Position numbers and translations under genes: made by a program
Notes under the pieces: model-generated
Databases searched by the model: none
What the model was told of the DNA's origin: nothing
Seen by the model: the letters and a program-made list of their open reading frames with translations, nothing else
Part shown: positions 1 through 13,044 of the stretch, in pieces
Layout of the letters: every line of letters starts with the position of its first letter
Numbering within the stretch: position 1 is the first letter of the stretch
Origin: a virus
IMG/VR virus record: IMGVR_UViG_3300028864_000107
Span: 1 to 21,864 of that record
DNA: 21,864 bases
Reading direction: 5' to 3' (one strand)

Positions 1-138
1 CTCGTCTGGTGTCTTTCTAACTATGGAACTATGGACCTGCCGAATCGTAGTTGGGTATGGTATGGCAATGACGACCATCAAACATTCGTGTTCAACAACG
101 AGTCTGACGCCACGCTATTTATTCTGAGGTGGAAATGA
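1..138 (+). CDS. LRWK-array unit U1, small paralogous phage protein (5' partial)
   Basis: The gene is cut by the left window edge; reading frame 1 is open from base 1 to the TGA at 136-138. The visible 45 residues contain the family's Trp-Cys pair near the start (VWC) and end in SDATLFILRWK, the C-terminal signature shared by nearly every gene down to 2662. The function is unknown. The last codons (CTG AGG TGG AAA TGA) also supply the AGG Shine-Dalgarno and the ATG of the next gene. It is the first visible member of the array, which probably extends further left. Confidence 0.85.
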   Translation, partial: LVWCLSNYGTMDLPNRSWVWYGNDDHQTFVFNNESDATLFILRWK

Positions 139-314
139 GTAAATCGTTCGTTGGCGTTAACCTTCTTGACAACCATCATCTGATCGAGATGTCGGACTGG
201 TGTAATGCGAATACTGGCGCCTGGTCCTGGAATATAGGTATGGACACCTCAGTTGAATTTAAGTTCGACCACGAGCAGGATGCTGTGTTCTTTGCGCTGA
301 GGTGGAAATCATGA
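135..314 (+). CDS. LRWK-array unit U2, small paralogous phage protein
   Basis: This gene encodes 59 residues. I chose the ATG at 135, which overlaps the previous stop (ATGA) and lies 5 nt after the AGG of GAGGTGG; the in-frame GTG at 129 lies inside that ribosome binding site and is unlikely to be used. Family marks are SDWCNAN near residue 17 and QDAVFFALRWKS at the end. The protein is small, has no membrane segment, and is rich in Trp, Asp and Glu. Its function is unknown. The gene is translationally coupled to both neighbours. Confidence 0.85.
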   Translation: MSKSFVGVNLLDNHHLIEMSDWCNANTGAWSWNIGMDTSVEFKFDHEQDAVFFALRWKS

Positions 315-604
315 TAACAATTCCTTACTCTAAGCGTGTGTCGTCGGGGGATATGATTGATTATTTTACGCTCGATATTGGAGGATGTCTTAACCCTGTT
401 GCGGTGTTTGATGATTCGCCGTGGAAGGCAGAAATTTATCAAGTGCAAATCATTCATGGAGGTGAGCTCGATGGTTACCTCGGGTTGATCGGGCACAATG
501 CGGAGAAGCACGTGTCGTGGTCTATTGCTCCTGGCGGGGGGTGCCTCTACATCGAAATGATTCCTCCTTCCTGTGAAACTGCTGCATTGTTGGTGCTGTC
601 GTGA
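311..604 (+). CDS. LRWK-array unit U3, divergent and possibly degenerate member
   Basis: This gene encodes 97 residues from the ATG at 311, which overlaps the stop of U2 (ATGA) and has GAGGTGG upstream. It sits in register in the array but is longer and lacks the Trp-Cys pair. Its end reads CETAALLVLS where siblings read D-A-x-L-F-x-L-R-W, so the RW dipeptide and the embedded ribosome binding site are both gone. It may be a decayed or repurposed unit, or an unrelated gene inserted in the array; the ETAALLVL remnant favours common descent. The function is unknown. Confidence 0.7.
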   Translation: MITIPYSKRVSSGDMIDYFTLDIGGCLNPVAVFDDSPWKAEIYQVQIIHGGELDGYLGLIGHNAEKHVSWSIAPGGGCLYIEMIPPSCETAALLVLS

Positions 605-819
605 TAGAATATACTGAAATTGAGTTAACTAACTTGATAATATCAACTCAGCAAGGGGCTGACGCCTGGTGTGAAGAATATGTCGGAATGTATGGGCGAG
701 ACGAAACCGGCAAGATTGAGCATTGGGCAGTGCGGTACGGTCCAGACTACGGTGATCGAACTTATATATTTGCTCGAGAGCAAGATGCTGTAATGTTTGC
801 GCTGAAGTGGGCGAGATGA
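601..819 (+). CDS. LRWK-array unit U4, small paralogous phage protein
   Basis: This gene encodes 72 residues. The start is the GTG at 601, overlapping the previous TGA (GTGA); no good Shine-Dalgarno precedes it because U3 has lost the AGG-TGG codons, so re-initiation after U3 is the likely route. Family marks are ADAWCEEY near residue 22 and EQDAVMFALKWAR at the end, with Lys replacing the usual Arg in LRW. An acidic/aromatic central segment (DRTYIFARE) precedes the signature. The function is unknown. Confidence 0.8.
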   Translation: MIEYTEIELTNLIISTQQGADAWCEEYVGMYGRDETGKIEHWAVRYGPDYGDRTYIFAREQDAVMFALKWAR

Positions 820-1010
820 TGGCAGTTACATTTATCAACCTCGAATTTCTAACTCCTGAAGAAGGGATGGAAATATTCCAATGGTGCAGCGATCAATTCG
901 AAGATTCACAATGGGGTAAGGCAATCGTAGGCAAACAATTCATCAAATTCTATTTCAACTACGAGAAAGACGCAATGCTATTCACGTTACGTTGGGTGAA
1001 CAGATGGTAA
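816..1010 (+). CDS. LRWK-array unit U5, small paralogous phage protein
   Basis: This gene encodes 64 residues. The ATG at 816 overlaps the previous stop (ATGA); a second ATG at 819 is equally possible. Marks are FQWCSDQF, then SQWGKAIVGKQFIKFYFN and EKDAMLFTLRWVNRW. It is the closest sibling of U6: both have WC followed by a W-G-K segment and KDAMLF. The Arg of LRW is CGT rather than AGG, so the next gene must use another ribosome binding site (GGGTGA before 1004). The function is unknown. Confidence 0.85.
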   Translation: MMAVTFINLEFLTPEEGMEIFQWCSDQFEDSQWGKAIVGKQFIKFYFNYEKDAMLFTLRWVNRW

Positions 1011-1201
1011 CCGAAATAACGATCAACATTGATCTGCCTCGCACCAGTAACGGGCAGTATCTAGAAATGATTCGATGGTGTGGAGAAAACTTCGCTGATA
1101 ATACCTGGGGAAAGACAGTGCTTGATTACAAGACTATGCAATTTCATTTCAGAGATGAGAAAGACGCGATGTTATTTGCGCTAAGGTGGGCCGGGCAATG
1201 A
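1004..1201 (+). CDS. LRWK-array unit U6, small paralogous phage protein
   Basis: This gene encodes 65 residues from the ATG at 1004, overlapping U5 by 7 nt; an upstream in-frame TTG at 992 falls within the conserved end of U5 and is not needed. Marks are MIRWCGENF, NTWGKT and EKDAMLFALRWAGQ. Similarity to U5 along its whole length suggests a recent tandem duplication. The CTAAGGTGG near the end restores the AGG Shine-Dalgarno for U7. The function is unknown. Confidence 0.85.
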   Translation: MVTEITINIDLPRTSNGQYLEMIRWCGENFADNTWGKTVLDYKTMQFHFRDEKDAMLFALRWAGQ

Positions 1202-1422
1202 CCCTCATTAACCACAGAACTGTCGTTTATATTCGCACATCTAAGGCTGTAAAGAAAGAAATAGAACTCTGGTGCGACGAAACTTTCGGGAAACGAGGCC
1301 ACTGGAAGGAACCGATGAACACCAAGCCGTGGTATGTTCGACGTAGCATCGGACTCGACGAATACGAATTTTCTTTTACTACCGGAGCAAACGCTTCAAT
1401 GTTCATACTGAGGTGGAAATGA
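1198..1422 (+). CDS. LRWK-array unit U7, small paralogous phage protein
   Basis: This gene encodes 74 residues from the ATG at 1198 (ATGA overlap with U6). Marks are IELWCDETF near residue 24 and NASMFILRWK at the end; Asp of the DA pair is replaced by Asn. A basic/aromatic middle (WKEPMNTKPWYVRRS) makes it longer than its neighbours. It ends in CTGAGGTGGAAATGA, giving both the ribosome binding site and the start of U8. The function is unknown. Confidence 0.85.
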   Translation: MTLINHRTVVYIRTSKAVKKEIELWCDETFGKRGHWKEPMNTKPWYVRRSIGLDEYEFSFTTGANASMFILRWK

Positions 1423-1649
1423 TAGTAAGAACAAGAAACACAGAACGGTCTGGTTACGAGATGGACAGGATGTGGGAATGGATTGTATCCACATTCGGAT
1501 TTCCTACCCCGGCACTCCCCGGTGTGTGGTCGTACGGTCGAAGCATTGACCGTACCGGGACAACGGTTGTGAGCAGTACCTGGGACATAGAATGGATTGA
1601 TTTTCAACGCGACTGTGATGCTACGTTATTCATTTTGAGGTGGAAATAA
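1419..1649 (+). CDS. LRWK-array unit U8, second subfamily (MWxW type)
   Basis: This gene encodes 76 residues from the ATG at 1419 (ATGA overlap). Instead of the WC pair it has RMWEWIVSTF, followed by WSYGRS, IEWIDF and CDATLFILRWK. These features are shared with U12 (MWTWLIETF, WRYGKK, MEWIEF, ADATLFLLRWR) but not with the other units, so U8 and U12 form a subfamily although U9-U11 lie between them. The function is unknown. Confidence 0.85.
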   Translation: MIVRTRNTERSGYEMDRMWEWIVSTFGFPTPALPGVWSYGRSIDRTGTTVVSSTWDIEWIDFQRDCDATLFILRWK

Positions 1650-1840
1650 TGGAAGGCAACAATATTCGCGTTACGCTCACGGCTCTAGGTAACGACCCGA
1701 ATTATTTTGAGATAGTAAATCAATGGTGTCGGGAAAATGTCAGACCATATGACTGGGAGCATTCTAATACTACTGAACTCAGAGGCTACTATTTCCACAA
1801 AGAAGAAGATGCGATGCTGTTTATACTGAGGTGGAAATGA
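1649..1840 (+). CDS. LRWK-array unit U9, small paralogous phage protein
   Basis: This gene encodes 63 residues from the ATG at 1649; stop and start share one base (TAATG), with TTGAGGTGG upstream as ribosome binding site. Marks are VNQWCRENV near residue 26, LRGYYFHKEEDAMLFILRWK at the end, and an aromatic strand just before the signature as in siblings. The function is unknown. Confidence 0.85.
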   Translation: MEGNNIRVTLTALGNDPNYFEIVNQWCRENVRPYDWEHSNTTELRGYYFHKEEDAMLFILRWK

Positions 1841-2031
1841 GTTCCGTCTATATTTTAATTCGAGGGCAAGAACATTTTGACAGCATTTCGGCCTGGTGCA
1901 ATCAGTCGATATCCGGAAACTGTTCTATCACTCCGATGTATGGCGATCATTGGGCAGATGTTGTTAAAACCTGGGTATACGATTTTGATAGTGATGCCGA
2001 TGCTACCCTATTTACGCTGAGGTGGAAATGA
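1837..2031 (+). CDS. LRWK-array unit U10, small paralogous phage protein
   Basis: This gene encodes 64 residues from the ATG at 1837 (ATGA overlap, CTGAGGTGG upstream). Marks are ISAWCNQSI near residue 20 and DADATLFTLRWK at the end, preceded by a W-V-Y-D-F strand. The upstream in-frame GTG at 1831 lies within the ribosome binding site and is rejected as start. The function is unknown. Confidence 0.85.
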   Translation: MSSVYILIRGQEHFDSISAWCNQSISGNCSITPMYGDHWADVVKTWVYDFDSDADATLFTLRWK

Positions 2032-2256
2032 AATATATTGAAGTGATAGTAGATACTAAGACTAACGCTCAACGACTAGAAATGAATGTCTGGTGCAATG
2101 AGGTTTTCGGCAAAAGCTGTCGCGTTATTGATGATGTTATTTACTTTTCTGATAGTAACGTGTGGACCTGGCGCGCCGGACCAAAAATTTGGCTACCGTA
2201 CCTATGTGTTTTTGCGAGAGAAAGATGCTGTCTACTTTGCATTGAGGTGGAGATGA
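2028..2256 (+). pseudogene. LRWK-array unit U11, frameshifted (fused to U12 in the present frame)
   Basis: From the ATG at 2028 (ATGA overlap with U10) the frame is family-like through NVWCNEVFGKS. It then reads into a non-family sequence (FARERCCLLCIEVE) and runs straight into U12, giving an open frame of 150 codons to 2480. In the frame one base further on, bases 2188-2256 encode FGYRTYVFLREKDAVYFALRWR and stop at TGA 2254-2256, exactly where a sibling would end. Removing one base near the A5/T3 run at 2183-2190 restores a 75-residue unit. The cause is either a real mutation that makes a U11-U12 fusion, a sequencing error in the homopolymer, or (less likely) a +1 shift during translation. 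Confidence 0.7.
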
Positions 2257-2480
2257 AACGAATACCTACAAGAAATGACGAGCGAACTGTCGACGAAATG
2301 ACCGAGATGTGGACGTGGCTAATCGAAACATTCAAGAAACCCGGGTACAAGAATAGTTGGCGATACGGCAAAAAAGAAGACTGGGTCGGCAGCACGTTTT
2401 GTTCCGGACCGTTCGAAATGGAATGGATTGAATTCGATAACGATGCTGATGCTACGTTATTCTTGTTGAGGTGGAGATAA
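2253..2480 (+). CDS. LRWK-array unit U12, second subfamily (MWxW type)
   Basis: This gene encodes 75 residues from the ATG at 2253, which is preceded by TTGAGGTGG and overlaps the ancestral stop of U11 (ATGA). It is a close relative of U8: EMWTWLIETF, WRYGKK, FEMEWIEFDND and DADATLFLLRWR. Because of the U11 frameshift the same frame is open upstream to 2028, so it may also be made as the C-terminal half of a 150-residue fusion. The function is unknown. Confidence 0.8.
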   Translation: MKRIPTRNDERTVDEMTEMWTWLIETFKKPGYKNSWRYGKKEDWVGSTFCSGPFEMEWIEFDNDADATLFLLRWR

Positions 2481-2662
2481 TGCAAAATGATGACGAAGAA
2501 CTACATATCGAGATCGAAGATCCGAAAGTATCGTTTGCAATAATTGACGCCTGGTGCTTTCAAAGCTTAGAATCTTGGGGATTTATGGGTGACGGGCACT
2601 GTCGAACCTACTATTTCAAGCGTAAGCAGGATGTTTTGATGTTTCGATTACGGTGGCTGTAA
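2480..2662 (+). CDS. LRWK-array unit U13, last visible member
   Basis: This gene encodes 60 residues from the ATG at 2480 (TAATG overlap, TTGAGGTGG upstream). Marks are IDAWCFQSL and CRTYYFKRKQDVLMFRLRWL. This is the terminal unit: no gene overlaps its end, and its LRW arginine is CGG instead of AGG, as expected if AGG in the other units is kept for ribosome binding. The next gene starts 63 nt later behind its own promoter. The function is unknown. Confidence 0.85.
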   Translation: MQNDDEELHIEIEDPKVSFAIIDAWCFQSLESWGFMGDGHCRTYYFKRKQDVLMFRLRWL

Positions 2663-2672
2663 CGAATTTCGG

Positions 2673-2720
2673 TTGACTTTTGACCGCAACGACTGTATAA
2701 TTGCTGTATTGAATAAGGAG
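2673..2720 (+). promoter_or_regulatory. sigma70-type promoter and RBS for rnlA
   Basis: TTGACT at 2673-2678 and TATAAT at 2696-2701 are separated by 17 bp, which is near-consensus for host sigma70. A strong ribosome binding site AAGGAG (2715-2720) sits 5 nt before the ATG at 2726. The segment GTATAATT-CTG and the AAGGAG spacing recur at the promoter before 7071. Confidence 0.85.
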
Positions 2721-2725
2721 TATCC

Positions 2726-3907
2726 ATGAACTATCAGTTTCCGGTAATCAACAACATTTCGCAAGTGCTGCCTTTGATCGCAGAGCGCAAGGAATTCATC
2801 GTTGCTGTGAAGGATGGCTACACGGTCGTCAACTACGTGGTTCAAATGTCCGACACGTTTCCTCCTGTTGTATCAGAGGCGGAAGCTATCTTGCGCGAAT
2901 TGCGAGGTCTGATCTTTGACAACGTAACTGGCAAGGTTATTGCTCGCCGCTACCAGAAATTCTTCAACGTCAACGAGAAGGAAGAAACGCAAGTTGGCCT
3001 TGTTGACTTTGCTCAATCGCATGTGATCCTGGAAAAGCTGGATGGCTCGATGATCACTCCGATCCCTGTGAACGGCGAAATCCGCTGGGGAACGAAGATG
3101 GGCTGCACGGACGTTGCTAAGCCTGTTGAAGAGTTTGTTGCGGCTCGCCAGGAATACACTGAACTGGCCGACGACTTGATCGACGCAGATCAAACTCCGA
3201 TCTTCGAATGGTGCTCGCGTCAGCAAGCCATTGTTATCGACTATCCGGAAGACATGCTAGTGTTGACGGCAATCCGCGACAACGTTACTGGTGAATACGC
3301 GTCGTACGACGAGATGATCGAAACTGGTTTTACGTACGGTATCCCTGTTGTTAAGGCGTACCAAGGAACTGCTGCGAACATGCAGGAACTGATCGACAAG
3401 ACTGGTCCGCTGGTTGGCTGCGAAGGTTTCGTTGTGCGCTTCGACAATGGAATGATGCTGAAGTGCAAGGCGGAGGACTACATGCGCAAGCACAAGGCTA
3501 AGGACACGCTGGGCCGCGAAAAGAACGTGATCGAACTGATCGTAACTGAAAAGATGGACGACGTGAAGGCGTTCTTGGACGCTGGCGACTTGGCTCGTGT
3601 TGCGGCGTTCGAAAAGGCGTTCTGGGATGGTATGCAGGTTACGGCGCTGATGCTCGAACAGTTCCGACGACAAGCTGCGGTGTTGTCGCTGGATGTCGAC
3701 AAGCGTACCTACGCTGTTGAATTTGTGCAGAAGCAGGACAAGAAGCTGGCTCCGTTCCTGTACAAGATGTTCGACGTAAACGAATTGGCTCTGCCGCTGC
3801 TGGTGAAGGATGTTGCTTCGTCGTGCGGTACTGCTGCTCGCGTTGAAGAAGCGCGTTGGATTTTTAACGCGAACTGGGCTGCTCCGGCAGTCATCGAGGA
3901 GGACTAA
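2726..3907 (+). CDS. rnlA: RNA ligase, T4 Rnl1 (RnlA) family
   Basis: This 393-residue protein is slightly longer than T4 Rnl1 (374). Nucleotidyltransferase motif I is EKLDGS with the expected AMP-accepting Lys104. The upstream RGLIFD (about 60-65) and RYQKFFNVNE (75-84) match the Rnl1 pattern 'KFFNxNE'. IRDNVTGEYASYDE (183-196), motif IV EGFVV (233-237) and motif V LKCK (245-248) follow in order. The C-terminal region with AAFEKAF and DKRTYAVE resembles the Rnl1-specific domain. In T4 the enzyme reseals tRNAs cut by host anticodon nuclease, in concert with polynucleotide kinase/phosphatase; no PNK is visible here. Codons are dominated by CTG, AAG, GGC and CGC/CGT, unlike the AT-richer neighbours. 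The gene has its own promoter and strong ribosome binding site. Confidence 0.93.
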   Translation: MNYQFPVINNISQVLPLIAERKEFIVAVKDGYTVVNYVVQMSDTFPPVVSEAEAILRELRGLIFDNVTGKVIARRYQKFFNVNEKEETQVGLVDFAQSHVILEKLDGSMITPIPVNGEIRWGTKMGCTDVAKPVEEFVAARQEYTELADDLIDADQTPIFEWCSRQQAIVIDYPEDMLVLTAIRDNVTGEYASYDEMIETGFTYGIPVVKAYQGTAANMQELIDKTGPLVGCEGFVVRFDNGMMLKCKAEDYMRKHKAKDTLGREKNVIELIVTEKMDDVKAFLDAGDLARVAAFEKAFWDGMQVTALMLEQFRRQAAVLSLDVDKRTYAVEFVQKQDKKLAPFLYKMFDVNELALPLLVKDVASSCGTAARVEEARWIFNANWAAPAVIEED

Positions 3908-7484: not shown

Positions 7485-8305
7485 TGGGTAGACGTCACTA
7501 CTCATCGTCGAAGCCGTTTACGTGGTTGCGTAAAAAGGTATTCAAAGTCAATAAACCCGTAGCTCTCGGTTGGGGGCAATGGGATAAATGGGATGCTGAT
7601 TTGAAGAAAGATAGACCAGTTGCATTCTTCTTTACTGAAACACTGCCGGAATGGGTCGAATGGATCCCAAATCATAGTGTTGAATACCTCGACAATGTGC
7701 GTTGCTGGTGCTCAAACTATTTTGGTAATACTCACGGACTGCAATCTACGTTATCGAAAGGTAAATGGCACGAGTTCGAGGAGCGTGTCTTATTTAGTAA
7801 TTTTGATGCGTTCATTGATTTTATCGAATGCGAAGAAGCATGGAACCATATCGGATGGTCTGACAAAGAACAAGCTGCACCTTACAAACTTCCGTGGCAC
7901 CAGCGTCACTGGTATACACGTTGGGGTAAACGGTGGCGCTGTGCGCAAGCAGGGATTGACCATCTCAAGTGGGAGATGACGCTGCAAGAGGATGGAGTTT
8001 ATTCTCATCAGGCAATTTCGGCTGTAGAGAAAATGACCCTCTATACCTGGTGGAAAGATATACGCCCAGCTCGAGGCAGGGAGTGGGATGAAAGTGGGTT
8101 CCAGGCATTTTGGGACGCAATGGATCTCAAGTATGGTGGGCACGGCGAGTGGTTATGCTTTGGCACTAAATCGTTGACCGCAGAAGAATCAAAAATATAT
8201 GACGAGTTGTCAGCTAAGAACGAAGAACTAGAGAAGCAGCACGAAGAAGAAGATGACGAAATGCTCATTCGCTTAATTCGTATCCGTAGGGCTCTTTGGA
8301 CGTGA
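7484..8305 (+). CDS. Trp-rich hypothetical phage protein
   Basis: This 273-residue protein starts at an ATG sharing a base with the previous stop. It contains 21 Trp residues, many in W-x-x-W arrangements (GWGQWDKW, EWVEWIP, HWYTRWGKRW). A motif VAFFFTETLPEW lies around 47-58. The C-terminal part (about 228-255) is a charged probable coiled coil (EESKIYDEL, NEELEKQHEEE). I do not recognise a family function. Its last 33 bases are overlapped antisense by the HNH endonuclease gene. Confidence 0.8.
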   Translation: MGRRHYSSSKPFTWLRKKVFKVNKPVALGWGQWDKWDADLKKDRPVAFFFTETLPEWVEWIPNHSVEYLDNVRCWCSNYFGNTHGLQSTLSKGKWHEFEERVLFSNFDAFIDFIECEEAWNHIGWSDKEQAAPYKLPWHQRHWYTRWGKRWRCAQAGIDHLKWEMTLQEDGVYSHQAISAVEKMTLYTWWKDIRPARGREWDESGFQAFWDAMDLKYGGHGEWLCFGTKSLTAEESKIYDELSAKNEELEKQHEEEDDEMLIRLIRIRRALWT

Positions 8306-8974
8306 TTTATATGGTCCTCTTTTCTTACCTAACTTAGAAGCAGACATTTTTGCTCGTGTTTTGTCTGTTGCTGTTTGATTCGCTCGGCTGTCCGATATTT
8401 TCTTTTTTGTTACCTCAGTCTGAGAATGACCCAATCTACCTTTGTATGCGGTAGACCTGTTTATTTTTTGTTCTTCTGACCATACTCGCTCTTTTGCGCG
8501 ATCAGATAACTTTTCTTTATGAGACTCAGAAAAACTTCGTCCCAGGTAATACCCGTCAGGAATAGTCGACGAAATTGCAAGCAGCAGATTCGCTGTCCCA
8601 TTAGTGTACCATTTATTGCCATTGGCCTTACCAGTAAGTTGTTTAGCTAGCGACTCACGTAATTTAGCATATACCGTTGATTTCGGTAAATACCTAGATT
8701 GGTACTGATTACCGGGCTCTATCATTCGACTAAAGGCGTAACACATCTTTCGTTTACTGTCGCCAACAAATATTTTAGTAAGTAGCCAATGACATAAGAA
8801 ATGTTCTCGAGCTGTTAGTGTAGCGAGATTAGTTGGGTCTTTAGCAACTTCCGGAAATATAGACTTAGGCAGGATATGATGTTTTTCAGTGTATCCAGTG
8901 ATAGAACGGCTAAATGCTCGTTGACAAATGTTTGAATACCATGTATAATACTTATTGTTTAACATAATTGGCAT
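8273..8974 (-). CDS. HNH homing endonuclease with NUMOD-type C-terminus
   Basis: This protein has 233 residues from the ATG at 8974, or 230 from the second ATG at 8965. The HNH nuclease core is EKHHILPKS (30-38, His32/His33), N49 and EHFLCHWLLTK (57-67). The region 121-146 (KWYTNG to GYYLGR) and short helix-turn-helix-like segments (SESHKEKLSD, GHSQTEVTKKKISDS) match the DNA-binding NUMOD3-like tails of phage homing endonucleases. It is a free-standing mobile gene inserted antisense between phage genes, overlapping the end of the 7484 gene. No Shine-Dalgarno is evident; the start lies in a hairpin with a late-promoter-like box. No intron or intein is seen. Confidence 0.9.
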   Translation of the reverse strand: MPIMLNNKYYTWYSNICQRAFSRSITGYTEKHHILPKSIFPEVAKDPTNLATLTAREHFLCHWLLTKIFVGDSKRKMCYAFSRMIEPGNQYQSRYLPKSTVYAKLRESLAKQLTGKANGNKWYTNGTANLLLAISSTIPDGYYLGRSFSESHKEKLSDRAKERVWSEEQKINRSTAYKGRLGHSQTEVTKKKISDSRANQTATDKTRAKMSASKLGKKRGPYKSRPKSPTDTN

Positions 8975-9384: not shown

Positions 9385-9420
9385 AGGAGGTCATTACAAT
9401 TGACAACAAATAAGCAATGA
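9385..9420 (+). promoter_or_regulatory. RBS plus possible 6-codon leader peptide coupled to the IF-1 gene
   Basis: The strong AGGAGG (9385-9390) is 26 nt from the IF-1 ATG, too far to serve it directly. It is 9 nt from a TTG at 9400 that opens a mini-frame (MTTNKQ) ending at TGA 9418-9420, which overlaps the IF-1 ATG as ATGA. Ribosomes could initiate on the mini-frame and re-initiate on IF-1. Confidence 0.5.
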
Positions 9421-9629
9421 AGGAAGAATGCCTGCGTTTTGAAGGCACTGTAGTTGAAGTGCTACCAGCAGCAACATTTCGTGTAGTCTTAGAAAACGAA
9501 CACAAGATCCTCGCTCATCTTGGCGGTAAGCTACGCAAAAACAGTATCAACATCCTGTTAGGCGATAAGGTACAAGTGGACGTTTCAGTTTACGACATGA
9601 CACGCGGAAGAATCACTTATCGGCTCTAA
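9417..9629 (+). CDS. infA: translation initiation factor IF-1 homologue
   Basis: This 70-residue protein is close to the 72 of E. coli IF-1. It matches the IF-1 OB-fold along its length. [20 protein letters not shown] (8-27) corresponds to [34 protein letters not shown] (29-42) corresponds to [34 protein letters not shown] (44-63) corresponds to [20 protein letters not shown], and the end is GRITYRL. Bacterial IF-1 binds the 30S A site with IF-2 and IF-3 and tunes start-site selection; a phage copy would be expected to act on host ribosomes. The start is the ATG at 9417; TAA at 9411-9413 blocks any upstream extension. The end is overlapped 17 nt antisense by the GIY-YIG gene. Confidence 0.9.
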
Positions 9630-10365
9630 ATTTTACCCATCGAAGTTTTTGGTAATCACTTAAACATGTAGGGCAAGCATACATAGATCGACGGTGGACA
9701 TCTGGCACTTGTTCGAATTCACCGTGGCACGGGCAAATTATTTTCATCGGCGTTGTCATGTTGACAAATGATGATGCATCGTATGAAAATTTATTGTTGT
9801 GCTGCAATTGTGCATCTTGTATAAATTTAGTGTATCCTGTTTTAGTCTTGCTTGCGCCTCGTTGTGACTTACTGCATTGTGGACATCCGCAGCCAGCTAA
9901 ATGGTCCATAGGTTTTTGATTCCATTCGCCGTGAATAGGACACACTATAGTGACATGCGTGTGGGAATTTTTATATTTGACCCGAACATAAGAATATTTA
10001 TTTTTGTGTTTTTTATTAGCTAAGTCGATAAACTCTTGTATTGAACGTTTGTTGACTGATCCAATAAATCTCGGCTTGCCGTAATAACACGACTTGTTTA
10101 GTAGCAACGAGTTATCCCAATATTCGTGTATTGTTTGTTGCTCAAAATCATATGCATCGTTGCCAGATAGAAACTCAGCGATAATCTGCCATTCGAAATC
10201 GTCAAACATAGGATTTACCACTTTTGACGAAGTTCGGTATATAAATAAATCGACATCGGACGGTAACGAATTCGCCTCCCTATACCCGATATAAATTTCA
10301 CCAGTTACTTTATGTGTGCCAAAATAAACATACGGCCGTACTTGTGTTGAGTGATAAATAATCAT
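9613..10365 (-). CDS. GIY-YIG homing endonuclease with two Cys/His DNA-binding repeats
   Basis: This protein has 250 residues from the ATG at 10365, preferred over the TTG at 10407 because the GIY core then lies near the N-terminus and AAAGGG precedes it. [19 protein letters not shown] (11-29) is the GIY-YIG pair, and [18 protein letters not shown] (73-90) carries the probable catalytic Glu75. Two related zinc-binding repeats follow: FIDLANKKH to CPIHGEW to GCGCPQC (112-164) and FIQDAQLQH to CPCHGEF to CPTC (181-234). It is a free-standing endonuclease, antisense to the surrounding genes, with its 3' end overlapping the IF-1 gene. Confidence 0.9.
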
Positions 10366-10586: not shown

Positions 10587-11288
10587 ATGGCACAACAAAT
10601 CATCAATATCGGGGCAAATCCATCTGACGGCACAGGTAGCCCGTTACGTGAATCGTTCGACCGAATCAACAAAAACTTCACAGAATTATACTCAGGTAAT
10701 ATTGCTCCACCGACAGGCGGAAATACTACACCTACTGGGTCAACAGGGGTAGTCACGTCAGTTGCTGGTAAGGTTGGCCCAGTAAAATTGTATGTCAATG
10801 ACGTTAATGGCGCAGTATCGCAAAATTATGTTGACAGCAAAGTTGGTGAATTAGTATTCGACGCAGTCAACGACCAGATTGTTGATCTAACCGCAGCAAC
10901 CCCGGCTATAGTCGACGATATGCGCGTCTTAGCTGCTTCAATCCAGGCAGACAGTGGATATTACGTCGGGCTTGTAGATCAGTTATCAACAAAGCTATCA
11001 ACAACCAACGGCGGCACAATGCTCGCACCGTTACGTTTGAATGCTGATCCAGTAGTTCCAACTGAAGCTGCTACGAAACAATATGTTGACGCTAAAGTAC
11101 AAGCGAATACTACAGCGATCAATACGCTGGCAGCTGATGTCTACACTAAAGCCGAGATGATTCAGATCTTACTAAATATAACAAACAACACAAACGATTA
11201 CGGTTCTATTGCGCCGATTACTGTAGATAATTACGGATCAATAACAGATGCAGTGACAGACATCGAAGATTACGGGGGTATCAATTAA
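10587..11288 (+). CDS. virion structural protein, short fibre/baseplate type
   Basis: This protein has 233 residues. The N-terminus INIGANPSDGTGSPLRESF (6-24) followed by INKNFTELY is a motif shared with the big fibre at 13044 and typical of T4-like structural proteins that dock to the baseplate or tail. The middle has TEAATKQYVDAKV, a common fibre segment. The C-terminus has repeated DYGSI/NYGSI/DYGGI elements, also seen in T4-like virion proteins. It begins the structural operon behind a late-like box. The exact place in the particle cannot be told from sequence. Confidence 0.8.
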   Translation: MAQQIINIGANPSDGTGSPLRESFDRINKNFTELYSGNIAPPTGGNTTPTGSTGVVTSVAGKVGPVKLYVNDVNGAVSQNYVDSKVGELVFDAVNDQIVDLTAATPAIVDDMRVLAASIQADSGYYVGLVDQLSTKLSTTNGGTMLAPLRLNADPVVPTEAATKQYVDAKVQANTTAINTLAADVYTKAEMIQILLNITNNTNDYGSIAPITVDNYGSITDAVTDIEDYGGIN

Positions 11289-11794
11289 TGGCATTCTATC
11301 CGACTTACCTTTATATGAAACAACATTCTGTAACCGGAAAACTATATTTTGGAAAAACAATTTTGACACACGATAAGATGTTAACATATTCTGGTTCCGG
11401 TAAGATTTGGAATTATCATTTACGAAAACATCCAGGCGAAGTGTTGACTATTTGGTATTGTTTGTTCTTCGATAAGGACGAATGCATGAAAACTGCTATA
11501 GGATTGTCTGAAATAGCAAATATAGTTGAGTCGACGGAATGGTATAATCTCAAAAAAGAAACAGGTATTGATGGCGGCCCTCTGCCAGTGCATCTAAGAG
11601 AGGCAGCGTGGAAGAAAACGTCAGCAACAATGACCGGGAAAAGCAAAACCCCCGAACATATTGCTAACGCAGCCTTAGCACTAACAGGCAGGCATCATTC
11701 TGAACAACATAATGCTACGCAGTCATTAGTTAAAAAAGGTATTCCGTGGTCGTCGGCCAGAAGAGAAGCACAAAATAAAAGGAAAATAGCATGA
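11288..11794 (+). CDS. GIY-YIG homing endonuclease nested in the fibre operon
   Basis: This protein has 168 residues. YLYMKQHSVTGKLYFGKT (7-24) is the GIY-YIG core as in T4 Seg proteins, followed by YSGSGKIWNYHL (34-45), a probable catalytic Glu in LSEIANIV and the IDGGPLP segment. MTGKSKTPEHIANAALALTG (about 114-133) and GRHHSEQH are NUMOD3-like DNA-binding elements. The gene is in the same orientation as the structural genes and is joined to both by overlapping stop/start codons (TAATG at 11286-11290, ATGA at 11791-11794). It is therefore translated in the structural operon although it is a mobile element. Confidence 0.9.
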   Translation: MAFYPTYLYMKQHSVTGKLYFGKTILTHDKMLTYSGSGKIWNYHLRKHPGEVLTIWYCLFFDKDECMKTAIGLSEIANIVESTEWYNLKKETGIDGGPLPVHLREAAWKKTSATMTGKSKTPEHIANAALALTGRHHSEQHNATQSLVKKGIPWSSARREAQNKRKIA

Positions 11795-13044
11795 GTCGAC
11801 AAGTTCAATTACGTGGTGGAACCACAGCACAGACCGCAGTATTTACAGGCGCAAAAGCAGAGCTCACAGTAGACAAAGATCTCAACATCCTAATTCTGCA
11901 TGACGGTGTTACCCCTGGTGGTATCAAGATTGCATCACAGGCATACGCCGAAGCACACGGTGCAGGCGGTGGTGTTGGCACAGTAGGACCGAAGGGTGAT
12001 ATGGGACCACCAGGGCTCGATGGTGCTAAGGGCGACAAAGGCGATAAGGGTGACCAAGGCATCCCAGGAACCGCAGCCTACAAAGGCGATATTGGTCCAA
12101 AGGGCGATTACGGCGATACTGGGGCCAAGGGCGATAAGGGTGACAAGGGCGACGCTGGACCAAAAGGCGACCAGGGCGATCAAGGTGTCCCGGGAGTTAG
12201 CAATGTTCCTGGACCAAAAGGCGACCAAGGCGACCAAGGGCCGGCAGGTACTCAAGAAGGTCCTCCGGGTCCTCCAGGTGAGCAAGGCCTACAAGGTAAC
12301 CCAGGACGCGATAGCACAGTCCCAGGACCAAAGGGTGATCAAGGCGATCCGGGTGCCACAGGAGCCAAAGGCGACAAGGGCGATGCTGGGCTGCAAGGGC
12401 TGCCAGGGCAAGATGCTAACACAGGTGACATCTTCTTCACTGGCACCACGATCGGAACGCGATATACAGATCAAAGCATCGACATTGTCCCAGACGGAAT
12501 TGGCGAGGTCCATATCTCCGCTAACGTCGGTATCGAAAATCTTAACCCAGAGTATTCACTCCACGTAGGTAATGCTACTCAGTCAGAAAGCACTGGTGAC
12601 GTTGGCTTCAGCTTCAACGATGCTGCTACAACGAATCGCTACTCAGGAACTGCCAGCATTGGTTGGTCCTGGTTTAACGGTATCGACAAAGGCAACAATC
12701 AGGTGTCACCGAAGCACGCCGTGTTTGGTATCTTCAAGCACGGTTCACCAGCAACACCGTGGCTAAGCTTTGATGCTCTTACTCCAGCCAATGCGGTAGT
12801 TTTTGCGCCGGCAACAGGCGACGCAATCTTCACAGGTAAGGTAGTCGCTACAGCTGGCGTTCAGTTTAGCGACGGATCAGTCCTGAATACAGCGAAGGCA
12901 GAAATCCCAGCCACAGCAGAAGGACACGCCGGAGATTTAGCCGGAATGGTTGCTTTTGGTCCAGGTTTCCTGTATTACTGCACGGCTGATTACGACGGCA
13001 CAACGCCGATATGGACGCGCACCCCACTAGGAGCAAGCTGGTAA
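11791..13044 (+). CDS. collagen-like tail fibre with Mtd-like N-terminal domain
   Basis: This protein has 417 residues. The N-terminus VQLRGGTTAQTAVFTGAKAE (5-24), then LTVD and ILHDGVTPGG, matches the trimerising N-domain of phage receptor-binding proteins such as Bordetella phage Mtd. Residues about 66-207 are Gly-X-Y collagen repeats rich in GPKGD and GDKGD, interrupted at several points. The rest (208-417) is a beta-rich tip domain with SIGWSWFNG and QFSDGSVLNTA, and the end is GFLYYCTADYDGTTPIWTRT. It probably forms a trimeric receptor-binding or whisker fibre. It overlaps the upstream endonuclease by 4 nt and the next fibre by one base. Confidence 0.88.
   Translation: MSRQVQLRGGTTAQTAVFTGAKAELTVDKDLNILILHDGVTPGGIKIASQAYAEAHGAGGGVGTVGPKGDMGPPGLDGAKGDKGDKGDQGIPGTAAYKGDIGPKGDYGDTGAKGDKGDKGDAGPKGDQGDQGVPGVSNVPGPKGDQGDQGPAGTQEGPPGPPGEQGLQGNPGRDSTVPGPKGDQGDPGATGAKGDKGDAGLQGLPGQDANTGDIFFTGTTIGTRYTDQSIDIVPDGIGEVHISANVGIENLNPEYSLHVGNATQSESTGDVGFSFNDAATTNRYSGTASIGWSWFNGIDKGNNQVSPKHAVFGIFKHGSPATPWLSFDALTPANAVVFAPATGDAIFTGKVVATAGVQFSDGSVLNTAKAEIPATAEGHAGDLAGMVAFGPGFLYYCTADYDGTTPIWTRTPLGASW
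11986..12411 (+). repeat. collagen Gly-X-Y coding repeats
   Basis: Short tandem DNA repeats of the type GGCGACAAGGGCGATAAGGG encode Gly-X-Y triplets in the fibre at 11791. Several blocks (GPKGDQGDQG, GAKGDKGD) recur almost unchanged, so slippage and recombination could change the fibre length. Confidence 0.85.

Follow-up and report, generated by a model that had tools for sequence, protein, structure and literature searches.

Here, we describe a row of small paralogous viral genes and propose, with moderate confidence, that it is a polycistronic unit in which the end of each gene provides the ribosome-binding site of the next. The row would consist of single-domain paralogs belonging to one phage family and sharing a ferredoxin-like beta-alpha-beta-beta-alpha fold. 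The computations show the last helix (D-A-x-x-F-x-L) to be structural, and the final Leu codon together with the codons for R-W to double as the Shine-Dalgarno (SD) sequence of the following gene (yTG AGG TGG), 8 nt ahead of its overlapping ATGA start. Each gene thus terminates in its successor's ribosome-binding site. Duplication, loss and swapping of units may also take place at this motif, host RNA polymerase would transcribe the row early in infection, and the units may each bind a different host or rival target and together serve as a toolkit for host takeover or counter-defence.

The window (the whole stretch of DNA analyzed, one strand of an IMG/VR virus record, 21,864 bases) opens with 13 tandem units that cover positions 1-2662, all on the + strand and overlapping by 1-7 nt, mostly as ATGA. 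The array probably extends upstream of the window, since its first unit is cut by the contig end. The features are as follows, with E values from the family HMM:

1..138 (+): u01, 5' end cut by the contig end, ending ...ESDATLFILRWK
135..314 (+): u02, 59 aa, ending ...EQDAVFFALRWKS, E 5e-15
311..604 (+): u03, 97 aa, degenerate or divergent, C-terminus ETAALLVLS without RW, no match to the family HMM (E<1e-3)
601..819 (+): u04, 72 aa, GTG start, ending ...EQDAVMFALKWAR, E 1e-12
816..1010 (+): u05, 64 aa, ending ...EKDAMLFTLRWVNRW, E 6e-13
1004..1201 (+): u06, 65 aa, modeled as beta-alpha-beta-beta-alpha with pLDDT 92, E 7e-18
1198..1422 (+): u07, 74 aa, ending ...GANASMFILRWK, E 3e-11
1419..1649 (+): u08, 76 aa, modeled with the element order of u06 with pLDDT 88, nearest paralog of u12, E 5e-9
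1649..1840 (+): u09, 63 aa, ending ...EEDAMLFILRWK, E 2e-14
1837..2031 (+): u10, 64 aa, ending ...DADATLFTLRWK, E 3e-11
2028..2256 (+): u11, open frame running on into u12 because of a frameshift at the A5 run 2183-2187, tail out of frame ...EKDAVYFALRWR
2253..2480 (+): u12, 75 aa, ending ...DADATLFLLRWR
2480..2662 (+): u13, 60 aa, final unit, with CGG for the tail Arg and no coupled gene next
126..132 (+): GAGGTGG, both the L-R-W codons of u01 and the SD of u02
299-305, 1410-1416, 1637-1643, 1828-1834, 2019-2025, 2244-2250 and 2468-2474 (+): further exact copies of GAGGTGG
2673..2701 (+): sigma-70-type promoter TTGACT-17-TATAAT (11/12), closing the array and preceding the RNA ligase 1-like gene
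2726..3907 (+): T4 RNA ligase 1-like gene (PF09511, E 5e-30), downstream neighbor outside the array

The original prediction of 13 tandem paralogs with a constant tail and a variable body was confirmed by this tiling and by a DNA pattern for DA-x-L-F-x-L-R-W, which matched eight times in the window, always within the array, and never in 100 dinucleotide shuffles. A family HMM built mostly from contigs other than the window matched 11 tiled window frames at E<1e-3, the merged u11/u12 frame counted among them, and the tail is present in every unit except u03. DNA shared between units is clustered in the final ~50 nt of each gene. The count of 13 units holds for the tiling but must be qualified for the truncated u01, the tail-less u03 and the frameshifted u11; likewise, of the W-C pair described near residue 20, the W stands, but the second position is C, I, L or K. 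A megablast search of the window against INPHARED gave no match.

Several other genes in the window were noted. A gene at 9417-9629 (+) matches translation initiation factor IF-1 (PF01176, E 5e-21) and phrog_30201, and 11791-13044 (+) encodes a tail fibre with collagen repeats, whose N-terminal domain is that of the Major tropism determinant (Mtd; PF18454, E 1e-8); a diversity-generating retroelement of a Bordetella phage targets Mtd. Two homing-endonuclease-like genes (8273-8974 and 9613-10365; phrog_655 and phrog_681) lie on the - strand, opposite the array, and the frame at 11288-11794 (+) is GIY-YIG-like by eye.

To place these units in a wider family, a degenerate nucleotide pattern of the tail was used to draw 36 stretches from IMG/VR, and an iterated profile identified 254 members (E<1e-3) across about 35 loci in environmental phage contigs. 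Long and variable rows of family genes occur in many other giant phages, with up to 38 whole-record profile matches in one 607 kb record, 33-34 in each of two contigs of ~460 kb and 36 in a 154-kb contig, in which 45 members were counted within 18 kb and many more frames ending in LRWS fell below threshold. Family subtypes are common to distant contigs. Among isolates, Sinorhizobium phage Phosso (469 kb) carries 32 profile matches, dispersed and annotated as hypothetical, and Agrobacterium phage Atu_ph07 carries five. Comparison of 94 members with PHROGs, Pfam and NCBIfam returned best values of 0.007 and 0.015 in the first two, for one member each, and nothing in NCBIfam; profile searches with the window units and these 94 members, PDB sequences included, gave only isolated weak single-member matches. 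No description of the family was found in the literature, and by sequence comparison it appears to be an undescribed family, unnamed in the libraries searched and defined here by its DAxxFxLRW tail.

Across 84,980 genomes of bacteria and archaea, the strict tail pattern found nothing, and a looser one returned 26 stretches, 24 of which were discarded as chance matches. The remaining two hold family-like frames in bacterial assemblies (L106 and L095; a Sphingomonas MAG contig and a 160-kb contig of Microvirga aerilata) that are possibly phage contigs. Yoloswag and phiM12, to which fold matches had pointed, were rejected as carriers for want of a family-profile match, and no array was found in the RNA-ligase relatives L004 and L005. 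Some units elsewhere carry additions: L053 4393-4851 and L025 4724-5059 (array-strand coordinates) have N-terminal extensions that look like part of a P-loop (GGRQTGKS, GRGAGKS), as though pieces of other genes had been captured, and a basic MNSxQRRKAKR-like N-terminus occurs on a subset of units common to L047, L048, L041, L053 and L027. A non-family gene, cluster Ab (...YKRKVWVVWGTGFHMEP...), lies inside or beside arrays in ten contigs, among them L008, L012, L025, L027, L041, L047, L051 and L052.

Structure prediction gave one fold for two dissimilar units rather than the unrelated folds that would have undermined the paralogy. The model of u06, built with 94 family rows, is beta-alpha-beta-beta-alpha (pLDDT 92.3), and that of the divergent, Cys-less u08 has the same element order (pLDDT 87.6) with a long, mostly coil insertion between strands 2 and 3, although the two models have family rows in common and are not fully independent. 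Both are predicted to be one ferredoxin-like domain, so that the variable cores would be loops and surfaces upon it. The conserved positions are hydrophobic or aromatic (helix 1, W26; strand 2, W36; strand 3, F50; helix 2, F59, L61 and W63), as expected of a protein core. Against the PDB, the best VIA-align Z of 6.6 was tied with many unrelated chains and Foldseek E values never fell below 0.1; the neighbors (ACT, EF-G, NikR, AcrIF5 and others) were set aside as guides to function on account of these tied, middling scores. The fold is a common arrangement and uninformative on targets. In the BFVD viral library, the matches were uncharacterized phage proteins with TM up to 0.83.

What sets the constant tail is best seen in its codons. 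Those for L-R-W, yTG AGG TGG, contain GAGGTG, complementary to the 3' end of 16S rRNA, and the next ATG most often lies 8 nt past the first base of AGG. An overlap of -4 nt was found at 85 of 145 family junctions, and GAGGTG stands ahead of 71 of 145 starts that follow family genes versus 5 of 84 that follow other genes. Start/stop overlap combined with an SD inside the upstream gene is the signature of a translationally coupled operon, and both are present here. Arg is encoded by AGG in 93/141 tails that a coupled gene follows, compared to 1/11 uncoupled tails (Fisher p 3e-4); within the bodies of the same proteins, AGG accounts for 96/1118 Arg codons (p 2e-51), though paralogs share ancestry and these tail codon counts are not independent events. 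Predicted pairing with the anti-SD was also stronger than in synonymous recodings (-6.3 observed versus -4.0 kcal/mol; 131 junctions, p 3e-17; synonyms drawn uniformly, not weighted by usage). The motif is not obligatory, since a scan found no SD at 49/145 family junctions in tiled arrays; L020, L037 and L011 never use AGG for this Arg.

Conservation of the tail for protein reasons alone, as part of the fold or as a shared docking peptide with the SD likeness as a by-product, would account for the near invariance of W and F in the alignment and for the retention of W in 18/21 uncoupled units. Yet it is disfavored by the Arg codon choice just described, and it sits poorly with the dispersed members of Phosso, whose HMM-aligned tails keep F (33/34) and L (28/31) but relax R (9/28) and W (15/25); in array tails aligned in the same way, R and W are kept in 108/156 and 142/154, respectively. 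We therefore regard a protein-only origin of the tail as quite unlikely. Instead, codon choice, anti-SD pairing and the relaxed R and W of Phosso indicate two separate causes, with D-A-x-x-F-x-L held by the fold as the last helix and R-W held largely because the following gene has its ribosome-binding site there. The original reading of the whole tail as a protein signature thus survives for the conserved last helix but only in lesser part for L-R-W.

Related phages keep the order of units but differ in their number. At one locus, flanked by a SWIM-like gene on one side and a conserved small gene on the other, L048, L020 and L034 hold 13, 6 and 2 units, respectively, which bears out the expectation of a variable number of tandem paralogs and contradicts a fixed single copy elsewhere. 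The contigs L049 and L031 are near-identical over most of the region, and one complete unit differs between them (4669-4857 in L049), with both endpoints in TTGAGGTGG, within a shared GAGGTGG; this single clean case is the pattern that recombination at the shared tail would give. Between the same contigs, some single units have diverged among nearly identical neighbors, and one L049 unit is broken by a stop, as u11 in the window is by its frameshift. Pooled dN/dS of orthologous family units ranged from 0.23 to 0.36 across comparisons, showing that they are mostly under purifying selection; units are therefore retained, and variety comes from their turnover. Variety thus looks like the product of birth-and-death and unit swapping rather than of fast change within units, so that the proposed "diversifying" toolkit stands as to variable bodies and variable number, but not as to rapid change within a unit. 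We tentatively suggest, as a possible though less likely reading, that selection has made the L-R-W/GAGGTGG joint a boundary between cassettes. As each unit supplies the ribosome-binding site of its successor, units could be inserted, lost or swapped there with immediate translation, and giant phages would thereby have a modular stock of binding proteins that can replace one another.

The intergenic gaps of the region with the largest array (L047) contain six perfect TTGACA-17-TATAAT promoters and two with one mismatch; by comparison, 17 kb of coding sequence from the same region holds two with no more than a single mismatch. In T4-type phages, such promoters drive immediate-early genes. On this analogy, we infer early expression for the promoter-bearing arrays and, by extension, for the window array, whose own upstream end lies off the contig. 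The proteins are small, many, non-enzymatic-looking, individually conserved, often gained or lost, and under early promoters, which points to binders of host or rival factors that would make up an early host-takeover or counter-defence toolkit. The notion of an early accessory toolkit fits the variable unit number and the strong host-type promoters at L047. Tandem layout does not seem essential to function, since Phosso members are dispersed.

Two other accounts of the row must be weighed against this one. The units might belong to the virion or take part in its assembly, or they might be the subunits of a single complex with many parts, with the tail as an assembly tag; tail-fibre and baseplate-related genes do lie further along the window, and the common helix could pack as an interface. 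However, the largest array has perfect early promoters of the host type, one locus varies between 13, 6 and 2 units, broken units are tolerated (u11 and the L049 unit with a stop) and the Phosso members are scattered; all this speaks against such a role, which we consider very unlikely. Largely neutral birth-and-death of small paralogs, biased toward duplication at the repeated tail and leaving few functional units, would draw on the same broken units, as well as on the variable counts and the clustering of repeats at tails, but it is at odds with the low pooled dN/dS of orthologous units and with subtypes common to distant contigs, and is in our view unlikely. These findings put a name to a numerous family, so far without one, that accounts for a noticeable fraction of the small genes annotated as "hypothetical" in giant phages, offer a clear case of a conserved protein tail that is partly an RNA signal, and give a concrete joint for the growth and change of such rows. 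If the units do act in host takeover or counter-defence, each array would offer dozens of small binders ready for screening.

Overlapping, translationally coupled genes are textbook, and the junctions described here share the mechanism of ATGA start/stop coupling, with overlap and an SD in the upstream end; they differ from ordinary coupling in that the SD is a recurrent C-terminal peptide motif along a whole row of paralogs. Read as cassettes, the units would resemble an integron array in being modular, but the joint would instead be a ribosome-binding site that also codes for protein. The small proteins of the jumbo phages Phosso and Atu_ph07 belong to the same family and carry the helix motif DAMLFKLxW, but occur singly or in short runs, with R-W relaxed, and are annotated only as hypothetical proteins. 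Two proteins of "Uncultured Caudovirales phage" in BFVD (A0A6J5L7H3 and A0A6J7WGT2) have the same predicted fold (TM 0.80-0.83, 23-28% identity), but have no described function or arrangement, unlike the array units. For lineage-specific multiplication of a small domain, a precedent among jumbo phages is already known in Bacillus phage G, in which a zinc ribbon has expanded to ~35 copies (PMC7824862); that expansion concerns another domain, and the portion of the source drawn on here mentions neither a coupled tandem row nor a dual-coded tail. Compared to these systems, the new element is a recurrent protein tail, common to a row of paralogs, that also serves each following gene as its ribosome-binding site and coincides with a unit breakpoint.
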